In this document: positions 9,061-55,731 of the stretch, one piece after another | Layout: each line of letters opens with the position of its first letter | Numbering within the stretch: position 1 is the first letter of the stretch | Source: Fibrobacterales bacterium Fibro_02 | GTDB taxonomy: Bacteria > Fibrobacterota > Fibrobacteria > Fibrobacterales > Fibrobacteraceae | Reading direction: 5' to 3' | DNA: 64,000 bases | NCBI GenBank assembly: GCA_001603905.1 | Contig: LVAE01000016.1 | Span: 124,001 to 188,000 of the forward strand | Translations under genes and position numbers: made by a program | Notes under the pieces: generated by a model | Databases searched by the model: none | Seen by the model: only the letters and a program-made list of their open reading frames with translations | Told to the model about the DNA's origin: nothing

Positions 9061-11454
9061 ATGTGTAGAATTGCTTGTTTGGTAGTGTTTTTGAGTGTGT
9101 TCGCCTTGGCGGATTCCGCATCTGTAACGCCTCCTGTAACTGCCGCGCCGATAACCCCTGCGGCTCCAACGGAAAATGCTGCAGCCCCGCAGGGCCCGCT
9201 TCCGTCTCAGTCAACGGATAGCCTGATTGCGACGATGCCCCTGGCGCCCGTTGACCCGTATGCGGAACTGGAGCAGATTGCCCCGGCGCATTTCCAGGAC
9301 ATGGTGGTGCGTCAGCAGCGCCTGAAGGCGATTAGCGAGGATGAGTCGCAACCGAAGAACGTGCGCGACTTCGCCCGGGCTGCCCAGTTCTATTACAAGG
9401 AACAGTGGGACAGCTCCTATGCGGCGTACGATATTCTGCGAGGTCGCGATACGCTGTTGGACGGTGCGGTCATTCTCCGTATGGCGACGGCGAAGTTCAA
9501 GCTGGGCGATTACAAGATGATGCGCTCAGCATTGTCGGCATACAGGAATTACGAGAAGGACGCCTCGTTTGATAGGGCTGCCTCCCGCTTGAGAATCGAG
9601 GCGGCAATGGCGGATTCTACCTTGAGTGATCACGCCCATGCGGACTCGCTGAAGGCTTTCGTGGAAAAGTATCCGAAGTCCGATGACGCGGCGGCTCTCC
9701 GTTACCGTTACGCGCAGTACCTGGAACAGTTCAAGCAGCTGAAAGATGCCAAGCGCGTCTACCTGAAACTCCTGACGAGTTCCTCGGTGTATAAGGATTC
9801 TGCCTTCATGGCCATCCGCAGGCTCCGCAAGGTGCGTGGCGCCCCGGAAACCTTGGAAGAAAAAGTTGCGTATGCGAAGATGGCTTGCGCGAAGGACAAT
9901 GCGGGCGAATGCCTGACGCTGTTGGATTCGATTCGGATTCTGGATTCCCTGCTGATCACGCTTTCGCCGGAATCGGCCCTCCCGCCGCCCGAAGATTCTT
10001 TGCAGAAAAATCTGCCGCCCAGTTCCCTGGACATGGCGACCCGTATCAACTTGTGGGAAAAACGTGCCGTGACGCTGCGTACCTTGAAACGCGAAGAAGA
10101 GTCAATAAAGCAGTTCAAGTTCCTGCTGGATTCCGTGGAAGCCCGCCCGCTGTGGATGCAGTCCATCTTGCGCCTGTACAGGAATAATGCCGGACGCTAC
10201 GAAAAGGAAATCCGAGCGATGGACGCCGCGTTGCAGGATGCGAGCCAGTTCAGCAAGGAAAATGCGAACAACCTGTGGGTGAAGGGTTTCGAGTACGAAC
10301 AGAAGGAAAATTACGACAGCGCGATTGTCTGTTACAGGACCCTTTCGCACAAGCGCTTCAAGAATAATGTCAAGAGGCAGTGGGCGAAGTTCCGTATCGG
10401 TTTTGTGTACTATAAGCAAGAAAAGTGGAACGAGGCCGTTGCCGCCTTTATCGATGCGAGCAAGGAACCGTTCCTGTGGAGCGGAAGCGGCGCCCGCATG
10501 TTCCTGGGTGATGCCTATATGAAGCTTGGCAAGGATTCGCTTGCCCGTGAAGCTTACCTTGACTGTATCCGCGATTTCCCGCTGGCCTACTATGCACATC
10601 GCAGCCGCCTGAAGTTGGTTGAATATGGACTGATGGCCGAGAAGGATGTTCCTTATGCGCACGGGGTGCTGATGGCGCCTGAACAGACTCTTGCCTGGGT
10701 GCGCGCCTCGCAGAAAATAGGGAAGCCTGACACGAGCTACAATGCGGAACGCTACAAGAGAATTCGCACTCTGTTCCAGTATGGCTTTAGTGAACAGGCC
10801 TTTGCGCTTTACGACGAGGCCCGCAAGAAAAACGCAAAACGCCTGGATTTCTTGTATGAGTACGGAAAGCTTTTCTATGAAATGGGCGAGACTGCAGCCG
10901 GTTACCGCCTCGCTCGCCAGTTCCAGAACAACATCGATCGACGCCGCCTGATGGCGCCGCCCATCGATGTGCTGCATTACCTGTACCCGATTCCGTACAA
11001 GGAACAGGTCAAGTTCCATTCGGGCGAACGGATCGACCCGTTCTTCGTGTACAGCGTGATGCGCCAGGAATCGATTTTCAACTTCGAAATCATGTCGCCG
11101 GCAGGTGCTTGCGGATTACTGCAGATTATGCCCGCGACCGGCAAGATGCTCGCCGGCAAGGAAGGCCTCGAGAACTTCGAACCGCGCCAGCTCTTTAACG
11201 CCTACATGAACATCCGCCTGGGTATCCGCTACTTGGTGGACTTGAAGGCCGAATACAACGACGACTACATGTACGTGCTCGGCAACTACAACGCCGGTCC
11301 CAAGCCCACCAAGCGCTGGCAGGCCGCTGGCGAGGGGAAGCCCTGGGATATCCGTGCCGAAGAAATCAGCTACTGGGAAACCCGCGACTACGTGAAACGC
11401 GTCATGGGCAACTACTGGATTTACCAGGAAATCTACGACAGTTCAGAATTTTGA
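9061..11454 (+). CDS. Lytic transglycosylase, Slt70-like, with TPR region
   Basis: This 797-residue exported protein has a signal peptide (residues 1-18), an Ala/Pro-rich linker (about 20-65), a long alpha-helical region with TPR-like helices (about 75-620), and a C-terminal SLT domain (about 655-790). The catalytic glutamate is Glu670 in the motif RQES, followed by PAGACGLLQIMPAT and LGNYNAGP, the standard Slt signature. Such enzymes cleave the peptidoglycan glycan strand to leave 1,6-anhydro-muramic acid. The last codons and the stop lie inside a 32-bp direct repeat that bounds the next small gene, so the original C-terminus may have been altered by an insertion. Confidence 0.88.
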   Translation: MCRIACLVVFLSVFALADSASVTPPVTAAPITPAAPTENAAAPQGPLPSQSTDSLIATMPLAPVDPYAELEQIAPAHFQDMVVRQQRLKAISEDESQPKNVRDFARAAQFYYKEQWDSSYAAYDILRGRDTLLDGAVILRMATAKFKLGDYKMMRSALSAYRNYEKDASFDRAASRLRIEAAMADSTLSDHAHADSLKAFVEKYPKSDDAAALRYRYAQYLEQFKQLKDAKRVYLKLLTSSSVYKDSAFMAIRRLRKVRGAPETLEEKVAYAKMACAKDNAGECLTLLDSIRILDSLLITLSPESALPPPEDSLQKNLPPSSLDMATRINLWEKRAVTLRTLKREEESIKQFKFLLDSVEARPLWMQSILRLYRNNAGRYEKEIRAMDAALQDASQFSKENANNLWVKGFEYEQKENYDSAIVCYRTLSHKRFKNNVKRQWAKFRIGFVYYKQEKWNEAVAAFIDASKEPFLWSGSGARMFLGDAYMKLGKDSLAREAYLDCIRDFPLAYYAHRSRLKLVEYGLMAEKDVPYAHGVLMAPEQTLAWVRASQKIGKPDTSYNAERYKRIRTLFQYGFSEQAFALYDEARKKNAKRLDFLYEYGKLFYEMGETAAGYRLARQFQNNIDRRRLMAPPIDVLHYLYPIPYKEQVKFHSGERIDPFFVYSVMRQESIFNFEIMSPAGACGLLQIMPATGKMLAGKEGLENFEPRQLFNAYMNIRLGIRYLVDLKAEYNDDYMYVLGNYNAGPKPTKRWQAAGEGKPWDIRAEEISYWETRDYVKRVMGNYWIYQEIYDSSEF

Positions 11455-11473
11455 ATTCAGATTTCGGAATTAA
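11442..11473. repeat. Left 32-bp direct repeat of IVP element
   Basis: 25 of 32 bases match the copy at 11875-11906. It contains the stop codon of the transglycosylase gene. Core features are TCAGAATT, TGAA and GGAATTAA or CGAATTAA. Confidence 0.7.
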
Positions 11474-11498
11474 TGAAAATTTGAATGTAGGAAATGTG

Positions 11499-11906
11499 AT
11501 GGAAGAAAATTTTTTACAAAATAAAAGTATGAATTTTTCTATTAGAATGGTTGAATTGTATAAAAGACTTTCTATTGAAAAACATGAATATGTGATGTCA
11601 AAACAGATTCTTAGAAGTGGAACTAGTATTGGAGCTAATATTCGAGAAGCGAAACGTGCGCAATCTTCACCAGATTTTTATGCTAAACTGACGATATCTT
11701 TGAAAGAAGCTGATGAAACACAGTATTGGTTGGAATTGTTGAATAAAACAGGTTATATAAACGACGATATTTTTAAAAGCGTAAATTCAGATTGTGAAGA
11801 ACTTATTAGACTGTTGGTCTCGATCACCAGAACCGTTCAAAATAAGATAGCTAAGACAAAGTACTTAAGAAAAACTCAGAATTCTGAAATCCGAACTCCG
11901 AATTAA
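11499..11906 (+). CDS. Four-helix-bundle protein of the 23S rRNA intervening-sequence protein family
   Basis: This 135-residue all-helical protein shows the family core RSGTSIGANIREAKRAQS (residues about 46-63) and an ISLKEADETQYWLE segment. The family was first found in intervening sequences of 23S rRNA genes, but many copies, like this one, sit alone on the chromosome; their function is unknown. The gene is much more AT-rich than its neighbours. It is bracketed by imperfect 32-bp direct repeats, and its stop codon is inside the right repeat. The start at 11499 was chosen because the family's N-terminus aligns there; the frame is open from 11451. Confidence 0.85.
   Translation: MEENFLQNKSMNFSIRMVELYKRLSIEKHEYVMSKQILRSGTSIGANIREAKRAQSSPDFYAKLTISLKEADETQYWLELLNKTGYINDDIFKSVNSDCEELIRLLVSITRTVQNKIAKTKYLRKTQNSEIRTPN
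11875..11906. repeat. Right 32-bp direct repeat of IVP element
   Basis: This is the partner of 11442-11473. It contains the stop codon of the four-helix-bundle gene and ends 2 bp before the next gene. Confidence 0.7.
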
Positions 11907-11908
11907 CT

Positions 11909-12748
11909 ATGCTCTTCCTCCTCCTTACAATCGGTCCCGCGTTCCTTTTTGCCTGCGGAAACATCCTCGAAAAGTCGGGGGTGTCTACGGTCGGCAAGCG
12001 CACGGGCGGAACGTCGCAGCCTTGGGAATTTTTCAAGGGCGTGATTACGAATAAATTCTGGTGGCTGGGCATTGGCTGCTCGGGGCTTGCCACGCTCGGC
12101 TATTACATTGCCATGGCGCAGTACGACCTTTCGCAGGTGCAGCCGATGATGGTGCTGAACCCGGTGCTCACGGCCCTGATGGGTTTTTGCATCTTGAAGG
12201 AAGTCCTAACGAAACGCATCGTGATCGCAATTTGCTTTGTGGTAGCGGGTCTCCTTTACTCGGTGGAAAACCTGGGTGAATCGACCGCGATGCAGAATGT
12301 CGGGATGCTCTGGGCGTATGCGGTCGGTCTCAGTGCTGTGACGCTCGTGGCGCACCTCTGGGTCAAGGACCGCGAAATGGTGGATTCGCTCATCATGGGC
12401 GTGGGCTTTGGTCTTTCGGCGGCATTCTACAAGAGCCTTGCGATGGACTTCGACTTGGACCACATCGAGATTTCGTCCATCGCGAACTTGCTTCTGGATT
12501 TCAGGACGCTCGGCTACATTGCGACCTACGGCATAGCCTTCCTCTATTCGCAAGTGTCGTTCTCTCGCGGACGCGCCTTGTTCATCATCCCGTTCAGTGC
12601 GGCGGTGGGCGCTGCGGTCCCGACGCTTGCTGGCGTACTCGTGTTCTCCGAGGCGTTCCCGGTGGGCAAGGTCATCTCGGTGACCTTGGTCCTGATAGGC
12701 GCTTGCCTGTTTATCGTGCGCCGCCCTCGCCGAAAAAAACGTTCCTAG
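11909..12748 (+). CDS. DMT superfamily (EamA-like) membrane transporter
   Basis: This 279-residue protein is very hydrophobic, with about nine or ten predicted membrane helices in two halves, the pattern of drug/metabolite transporters. The first helix holds GNILEKSG, and each half ends in a helix pair of the EamA type (VQPMMVLNPVLTALMGFCILKE; then the region around VGAAVPTLAGVLVFSEAF). The C-terminus is basic (RRPRRKKRS) and cytoplasmic. The substrate cannot be told. It starts 2 bp after the right repeat of the preceding element, so it may originally have followed the transglycosylase gene directly. Confidence 0.75.
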   Translation: MLFLLLTIGPAFLFACGNILEKSGVSTVGKRTGGTSQPWEFFKGVITNKFWWLGIGCSGLATLGYYIAMAQYDLSQVQPMMVLNPVLTALMGFCILKEVLTKRIVIAICFVVAGLLYSVENLGESTAMQNVGMLWAYAVGLSAVTLVAHLWVKDREMVDSLIMGVGFGLSAAFYKSLAMDFDLDHIEISSIANLLLDFRTLGYIATYGIAFLYSQVSFSRGRALFIIPFSAAVGAAVPTLAGVLVFSEAFPVGKVISVTLVLIGACLFIVRRPRRKKRS

Positions 12749-34443: not shown

Positions 34444-35675
34444 TTGTCAATCCATTCCATGCGCTGCTTTATCCAGCTGTTTAACGAATCGATGGCTTCG
34501 TCATAGCTGTCGTAGGCTTCCTTGTAGGTCCAGTTCTCTGTGTTTTCGAGGACAGGCCAACGCTTGAATTCGTTTTTGGTGGCTGGGGCGAGTTCTGCCG
34601 CGTATTTTGAAATAGAATCGGGGAAGGTGGCGAGAAAATCGCGGTGCTCCTTCCAGTAGTCCACGGCGGCTTGCCAATATTTAGCTCGCTTGAAAATGTA
34701 TCCGTTCCATCCACTATTACGGATATACCAATCGGTGGTGGTGCGAAGGGAATCAACTTCCCAGTTTCCGTAGGCGACGTCAAAATCCCATACGGGGCCG
34801 AGCCGGATAGGTTCCCCGCGTTGCCAGGTTACATAAATGCTTCGCCTAAAGGCTCCGTCCAGGTTCTTTGAAAGTTCCTGAATCCAGTAGAAACGCAGGT
34901 AATCCTCGAAATCAAGGAAGTCGGTGATTTCATGGTTGCTTTGAAGTGTGTCGTCGTCTTCATCCTTTAGAAAATTCTCGAATTCACTCAGGACACCCTT
35001 GATGATTTGGGTGTCAAAATAATCGGGATCCTTGGGGTACTTGATGCCGAAGGTAGTTCCCTTCTCGGTAACGACAAAATGTTCCTTGCCGAATTCGGTG
35101 GGGCATCTTTCAAGCAAGAAGGAACTGTCTGCCTTGGGGATGTCCACGCGGTCCTTGCCGACTTTCACCGTTTCAACCAGTTGGTAGACTCCCTGGTATT
35201 GCCTGTTCAGATACAGTTCGACGAAGGTGCTTCTCGGCGTGTATTCGTCGCCGAGCCAACCTGCGAGTTTATATGTAATAAAGTTCTTGAGGAGTGTCTT
35301 GTCGGCGGAATTAGCGATAAGTGCCCAGTCTTTATCCTTGGGCATCCCGAACATTTCCTGTTTTTTTGCGAATTCAATTTTGTAGCTGGGCTTGGGCATT
35401 CCCGTAAAACTGGAGTTGCCGCGCCCCTTGATGGTCAATTCAAGAACGTCGCTTTCGGGAGAGTCCTTGCCGTATACCTGCAACTTTGCGGGAATCTTGG
35501 TTTCGCGGTCGCGAATTTGCGTGAAGTCCTCGGTCTCGATGACAAGTCGCGGCAAGCTTACGTAGGGGTATTCCGAATCGTCAATCGGTAAGTAGGCGGG
35601 TGTACTCTCGGGATCGTTCCATACGCAGGAACAGATTATACAGCCGAATAGTATTATAGCGAGCCGAATCCTCAT
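34434..35675 (-). CDS. CotH kinase-like lipoprotein (second CotH)
   Basis: This 413-residue protein has a lipoprotein signal (lipobox IICSC) and one CotH domain. It shows the family features: ELTIKGRGNSSF near 80-92, KPSYKIEFAKK, YQLVETVKVGKDRVDI, and the acidic PVWDFDVAYGNW motif, equivalent to the metal-binding D-x-D of secreted CotH kinases. It lacks the lamin-tail and repeat domains of the protein at 12808-15594. CotH proteins phosphorylate proteins outside the cytoplasm; the substrate here is unknown. It sits alone on the minus strand between the GT4 gene and the second SGNH module. Confidence 0.85.
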   Translation of the reverse strand: MRIRLAIILFGCIICSCVWNDPESTPAYLPIDDSEYPYVSLPRLVIETEDFTQIRDRETKIPAKLQVYGKDSPESDVLELTIKGRGNSSFTGMPKPSYKIEFAKKQEMFGMPKDKDWALIANSADKTLLKNFITYKLAGWLGDEYTPRSTFVELYLNRQYQGVYQLVETVKVGKDRVDIPKADSSFLLERCPTEFGKEHFVVTEKGTTFGIKYPKDPDYFDTQIIKGVLSEFENFLKDEDDDTLQSNHEITDFLDFEDYLRFYWIQELSKNLDGAFRRSIYVTWQRGEPIRLGPVWDFDVAYGNWEVDSLRTTTDWYIRNSGWNGYIFKRAKYWQAAVDYWKEHRDFLATFPDSISKYAAELAPATKNEFKRWPVLENTENWTYKEAYDSYDEAIDSLNSWIKQRMEWIDNHL

Positions 35676-55662: not shown

Positions 55663-55690
55663 CTTCTTAATTCCTTTTTTATAAAACTCA

Positions 55691-55731
55691 CACTTCACAC
55701 CCCGCACTTCACACTTCACACCCCACACTTC
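55691..55731. repeat. Tandem-like CACTTCACACCCC repeat
   Basis: CACTTCACACCCC occurs at 55691-55703 and 55712-55724, with partial copies between and after. It lies directly upstream of the promoter box of the next gene. Confidence 0.6.

Follow-up and report, generated by a model that had tools for sequence, protein, structure and literature searches.

What is a gene of the 23S rRNA intervening-sequence-protein (IVP) family doing between two ordinary protein genes, and why do the repeats on its two sides carry stop codons? The question is raised by a stretch of 64,000 nucleotides, hereafter the window, from Fibrobacterales bacterium Fibro_02 (contig LVAE01000016.1, positions 124,001 to 188,000), in which such a gene is wedged between a lytic transglycosylase gene and an EamA-type transporter gene. 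A preliminary description, made from the sequence without database searches, had proposed that the gene moved there as a unit, with repeats resembling an insertion target or ends, and perhaps with a choice of sites at gene ends.

The IVP locus and its flanking repeats

Profile searches matched the open reading frame to TIGR02436 (E=3.1e-32, 111 bits against a cutoff of 24) and to PF05635 (98.7 bits against a cutoff of 33.8); profiles of the IVP family were the only ones to match, and no tyrosine transposase profile did. The identity of the gene and its place between the transglycosylase and EamA genes, as given in the preliminary description, are thereby confirmed, and so is the gap of 2 bp before the downstream start codon (Table 1). 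The gene is the only IVP copy in the genome (a draft, 89%-complete, Fibrobacter-like to judge by its relatives), and the GC content of the element is 0.30 against 0.51 for the window. Comparison with relatives at the same site indicates purifying selection on the IVP gene (dN 0.10-0.23, with dS 1.2 or saturated, the near-identical pair L043/L050 aside). In relatives without the element, the transglycosylase ends in ..EIYDGI-stop or similar.

Table 1. Features of the IVP locus, with positions in the window
Feature	Position	Strand	Remarks
IVP gene (23S rRNA intervening-sequence-protein family, TIGR02436/PF05635)	11499 (ATG)..11906	+	alternative in-frame TTG start at 11451
Left heptamer array	11442..11474	+	TTCAGAA TTTTGAA TTCAGAT TTCGGAA TTAAT; holds transglycosylase stop 11452-11454
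Right heptamer array	11873..11905	+	CTCAGAA TTCTGAA ATCCGAA CTCCGAA TTAA; overlaps 3' end of IVP gene and its stop 11904-11906
Upstream host gene, lytic transglycosylase with repeat protein N-part	9061..11454	+	last codons (SSEF-stop) supplied by left array
Downstream host gene, EamA/DMT-type transporter	11909..12748	+	ATG 2 bp past element
Whole insertion relative to empty relatives	11442..11908	+	57 orthologous junctions compared

The direct repeat noticed earlier is real. The best ungapped direct match between the flanks is 25/32 (11443-11474 against 11876-11907), and the stops of the transglycosylase (left) and of the IVP gene (right) do lie inside the copies; a match of this quality was reached by 7 of 1500 random pairs of AT-rich 60-mers from the window, a count inflated by overlapping pairs. 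The same flanks match in inverted orientation at 23/32, which gives the element terminal inverted repeats like those of a 23S rRNA intervening sequence (IVS). Each arm is a row of four to five heptamers that follow the pattern TTCNGAA imperfectly, and the window copies read as both direct and inverted repeats because this motif is its own reverse complement. The lag-7 score is 10.5 for the right arm, one of only two such runs in the 64-kb window, and 6.5 for the left arm, which is weak alone; judged from these sequences, the 7-bp periodicity at the window locus is certain only through its relatives. The other period-7 run in the window (55688-55728, TCACACTTCACACCCCGCACTTCACACTTCACACCCCACAC) has a different heptamer and lies far from the IVP gene; no second IVP was found in this genome.

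The transglycosylase/EamA junction in related species

The orthologous transglycosylase/EamA junction was compared in 57 species loci of the window's genus. No element was present in 35 of them, an IVP in 11, and heptamer arrays without a gene in the remaining 11, this last state being assigned by eye. The usual junction consists of the transglycosylase stop, 3 bp and the ATG of the EamA gene. Empty and occupied orthologous sites are thus both present, as is expected of a transposable element, and the gene does occupy its site as a unit, as the preliminary description had supposed. It had also advised a search of related genomes for an empty site holding one repeat copy: empty sites were found, but the clean ones hold no copy at all. 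A 32-bp target-site duplication is rejected on that ground, and the idea that the repeats represent a duplicated insertion target is not supported, the arms being heptamer arrays that are inverted at other loci.

IVPs like that of the window (type A) occupy the junction in four species, and IVP-family sequences of another type in seven, with about 25-30% identity to the window IVP; one of the latter (L056) is a truncated remnant. The arms of the other type are (TTAGAAC)n on the left and (GTTCTAA)n on the right, or (AGTTACT)n on the left and (AGTAACT)n on the right. All 11 junction IVPs are oriented alike. When the three states (type A, other type, none) are mapped on a tree built from the flanking proteins, at least 9 changes are required, and presence or absence by itself requires 8. 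The sister of the window's species, which has type A, carries the other, unrelated IVP type at the same junction, and an occupied junction (G016) and an empty one (G022) are 94.5% identical upstream, with about 13 bp replaced and a join that is therefore approximate. By sequence comparison, the junction is a hotspot with repeated gain and loss, given the eight to nine state changes, the sister species with unrelated IVPs and the pair of occupied and empty sites. These site comparisons, in which the closest empty/occupied pair is the one at 94.5% identity, revealed neither an insertion event nor a target duplication nor an excision product.

Two other Fibrobacter junctions, lysS-like/lolC-like (L007, L127, L150 and others) and ..ADTQMR/MEGLLILI (L006, L009, L087 and others), each host several unrelated IVP clades with different heptamers and are further hotspots.

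Heptamer arms, protein lineages and gene-free arrays

Period-7 arms flank IVP genes well beyond this genus. At 61 non-redundant IVP loci of Fibrobacterota, the mean lag-7 run was 13.7 on the left and 13.5 on the right, against 3.1-3.9 at other lags, and the flanks stayed at background at every shift from 3 to 15 other than 7 and 14. A separate sample of 76 loci from other phyla (Acidobacteria, Planctomycetes, Clostridia, Bacteroidota, Proteobacteria, Chloroflexi, Cyanobacteria, CPR and others) gave 12.1 and 13.2, and a third of 28 loci from Geobacteraceae gave 16.6 and 13.9; neighbouring genes, used as a control, gave 4.1 and 4.2. The arms are inverted: the score of the left flank against its own inverted right flank was 18.4 in Fibrobacterota, against 8.55 with those of other loci (p=2.5e-29), and 20.1 against 8.6 for swapped flanks at the 76 loci of other phyla, while direct-repeat scores were 9.3 and 9.5, respectively, against 7.7 for swapped flanks. 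An inverted score of at least 15 was reached by 79.6% of 162 IVPs and by 2.4% of the 210 genes that neighbour them at these loci. Other IVP copies, around which the preliminary description had advised looking for the repeat, are thus surrounded by repeats of this kind.

The best period was 7 in 124 of the 139 periodic IVP loci and 8 in 11, and in 23 of 162 IVP loci, none of the periods 4 to 13 gave an array. Within a locus, the units of the two arms matched in at least 6 of 7 positions in 37 of 52 cases, against 2.5 after shuffling. Arrays have a median length of 31 nt (quartiles 29-35), and left arms are poor in C (10%). Most sampled IVPs sit between protein genes, and over many phyla the left array starts a median of 1.5 nt from the upstream stop and the right array ends 5 nt before the next start, which agrees with the earlier surmise of sites at gene ends. 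Outside Fibrobacterota, the arms of L214, L204, L164 and L236 have a period of 8 or 9, and the class-1 octanucleotide repeats of Geobacter metallireducens (PMC2700814) may be akin to them. At some sites or IVP flanks (L355, L370, L123) heptamer arrays reach 80-110 nt, a length that suggests ongoing expansion.

Which heptamer is used follows the protein. Clades of the IVP tree follow heptamer rather than site: members of the ACGAGAG clade are found at two separate junctions, and the lysS-like/lolC-like junction alone has clades with AGTGGTT, AAGTAGG, ACGAGAG and AGGTGTG arms. Pairs of IVPs from different sites share the heptamer in 69% of cases at 70-80% identity and in 2-8% below 60%, and same-site pairs at an identity of 0.2-0.5 share it in 0-5%; for pairs from different sites, the Mantel correlation reaches 0.17, where the null distribution has a spread of 0.028.

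The heptamers are also dispersed. In a census that covered 61 genomes of the genus and counted exact 19-mers for two heptamers, ACGAGAG had a median of 37 copies in the 9 genomes that carry its IVP against 2.5 in the 52 without it (p=2e-5), and AGTGGTT a median of 9 against 0 (p=8e-4), p values that take genomes as independent and ignore kinship. The non-matching heptamer showed no significant difference between IVP classes in this census of 61 genomes, and reversed-pattern controls gave 0 copies. The window heptamer has 14, 75, 36 and 12 copies in the four type A genomes against a median of 0 (p=3e-4, kinship being ignored here too). It is also abundant in G080, G084, G022 and G082, as is ACGAGAG in G018, where no cognate IVP was detected; these exceptions could reflect loss of the IVP, gaps in metagenome-assembled genomes, or spread without an IVP. 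Many of the genomes compared are drafts. In Oryzomonas, a cross-phylum check of copy number, one array only was found besides those of the IVP itself. Repeats that are specific to a protein lineage and dispersed in the genome constitute an organisation like that of RAYT and REPIN. In two species a ParB-like gene contains an in-frame ACGAGAG array in its variable linker, and other species have eroded forms of the array (L262, L321, L322); the intragenic array of L262 was considered as a clean insertion site and rejected, the linker being variable and offering no readable junction.

Orphan heptamer families have been described before. The genome of G. metallireducens contains 49 elements of four tandem GGGACCG heptamers (PMC2700814), and tandem TAACTGA repeats occur in Beggiatoaceae and cyanobacteria (PMC4679880). 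Were such families to have IVPs as their partners, GGGACCG arms should be found around an IVP in some nearby genome. This is the case in G128, a Geobacteraceae genome, where an IVP (35331-35642) lies between arrays at C30:35249 and C30:35754, its arms being GGGGACCGGGGACCGGGGACCGGGGACCGG and CCGGTCCCCGGTCCCCGGTCCCCGGTCCCC. The link between GGGACCG and an IVP is thus drawn from this relative, in which the heptamer is exact. Among open-licence PMC papers, none was found that links IVPs with heptamers beyond that on the Coxiella IVS (PMC4990558).

For their arrays, the authors of the G. metallireducens genome proposed binding sites of a global regulator (PMC2700814), and the main alternative to a mobile element is of this kind: the IVP would be a nucleic-acid-binding regulator that does not move, the arrays would be sites at which it acts as on an operator or on RNA, dispersed by some other route, and the sites at both ends of its gene would be autoregulatory. 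Heptamers that track the protein clade, and arrays scattered in and between genes, fit such a regulator. It leaves unexplained, however, the inverted arms standing exactly at the borders of the IVP, the sporadic occurrence of the gene and the recurrence of unrelated IVPs at the same junction, and we consider it unlikely. The arrays might instead be the mobile or targeted entity, arising first at gene ends, with IVP genes carried into like arrays or recombining between them. Gene-free arrays do outnumber IVPs, and junctions with an array only exist at the same site, but most empty junctions are without an array and heptamer identity tracks IVP relatedness, not site, so this order of events appears less probable still.

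It is very improbable that the element is a 23S rRNA IVS copied out of an rRNA gene: the protein family is the same, and a terminal stem and heptamers are found in the Coxiella IVS too (PMC4990558), but no rRNA lies at or near the site (no Rfam match in the window, which also eliminates an insertion within an rRNA gene), and the arms hold no 23S-derived sequence, differ between IVP types and mostly flank IVPs that lie between protein genes. Hardly credible at all is that period-7 arrays are inconsequential simple repeats made by slippage, with flanks similar by chance, for although in many bacteria no long simple repeat is commoner than the heptamer (as cited in PMC4679880), arrays are nearly absent at neighbouring genes of the same loci, and those of IVPs have two inverted arms, clade-specific units and a tight length.

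A putative mobile element and its relations

The feature is probably a mobile element bounded by inverted repeats, with a pentameric IVP protein that reads its own heptamers and a movement that we infer from the sequences compared. It measures about 465 bp and consists of one IVP gene between inverted arrays of about four to five heptamers each. Two solved IVP relatives, PDB 2gsc and 2rld, have five chains per entry. The IVP four-helix bundle would bind its own heptamers in a hairpin or in single-stranded DNA or RNA, conceivably with one heptamer per subunit, an arrangement that arms of four to five heptamers would suit. The transcript of the element may fold into a long end-to-end stem like that of the 23S rRNA IVSs excised by RNase III; predicted arm-arm RNA pairs average 25.8 for own arms and 14.9 for swapped arms, with 44 in the window. 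The most economical account would be that protein and cognate arms form a selfish unit, much like RAYT with REPIN but without a transposase, which would spread chiefly into the short gaps, a few bases long, that separate neighbouring operon genes, and of which gene-free arrays would be non-autonomous copies or remnants. To our knowledge, the IVP protein has no recognised catalytic domain, and the movement step could be performed by an enzyme of the host or of another element.

The four-helix-bundle fold is common to IVPs and the Avd proteins of diversity-generating retroelements, which are usually grouped with the S23 family. The 23S IVS of Coxiella, which RNase III cuts, has a terminal stem of 28 bp, and three GACAGAT heptamers directly precede its S23p gene (PMC4990558). 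With the 23S rRNA IVSs that carry an S23/IVP reading frame (Coxiella, Leptospira) the window element shares the protein family and terminal inverted repeats able to form a long stem; unlike them, it sits between two protein genes and not in rRNA, and its arms are IVP-clade-specific heptamer arrays with dispersed gene-free counterparts. RAYT genes with REP/REPIN sequences (PMC3116915) offer a parallel in their single-copy gene, in flanking short repeats that are dispersed and depend on the protein lineage, and in gene-less doublets. RAYT, however, is a tyrosine transposase whereas the IVP is a four-helix bundle, and REPs are palindromic 20-40-mers whereas IVPs have tandem arrays of a heptamer whose sequence is free. 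The H4 elements of G. metallireducens (PMC2700814) and the TAACTGA repeats (PMC4679880) resemble the arms in having four to five tandem heptamers, inter- or intragenic, some in opposed pairs; no IVP partner had been proposed for them, whereas here GGGACCG flanks an IVP in a Geobacteraceae genome.

These comparisons suggest that heptamer-bounded IVP units are an overlooked kind of mobile element. A broader proposal, a serious possibility although not one that we would call probable, is that IVP proteins may be the sequence-reading parts of a widespread, undescribed class of such elements: pentameric four-helix bundles that would recognise tandem heptamers one per subunit and move hairpin units without a known transposase, and from which the orphan heptamer repeats of bacteria would derive, 23S rRNA IVSs being one special place where they land. 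IVP/S23 genes, so far known mainly from rRNA inserts, occur in many phyla but have had no known role from the description of the IVS onwards, and reports of tandem heptamer families have treated these as orphans. A link between the two supplies the protein with a likely ligand that can be read from each genome, makes binding and movement directly testable, and would explain why insertions of this class recur at the junctions of operon genes. Should the IVP indeed read heptamers of freely varying sequence, it would represent an unusual recognition system.
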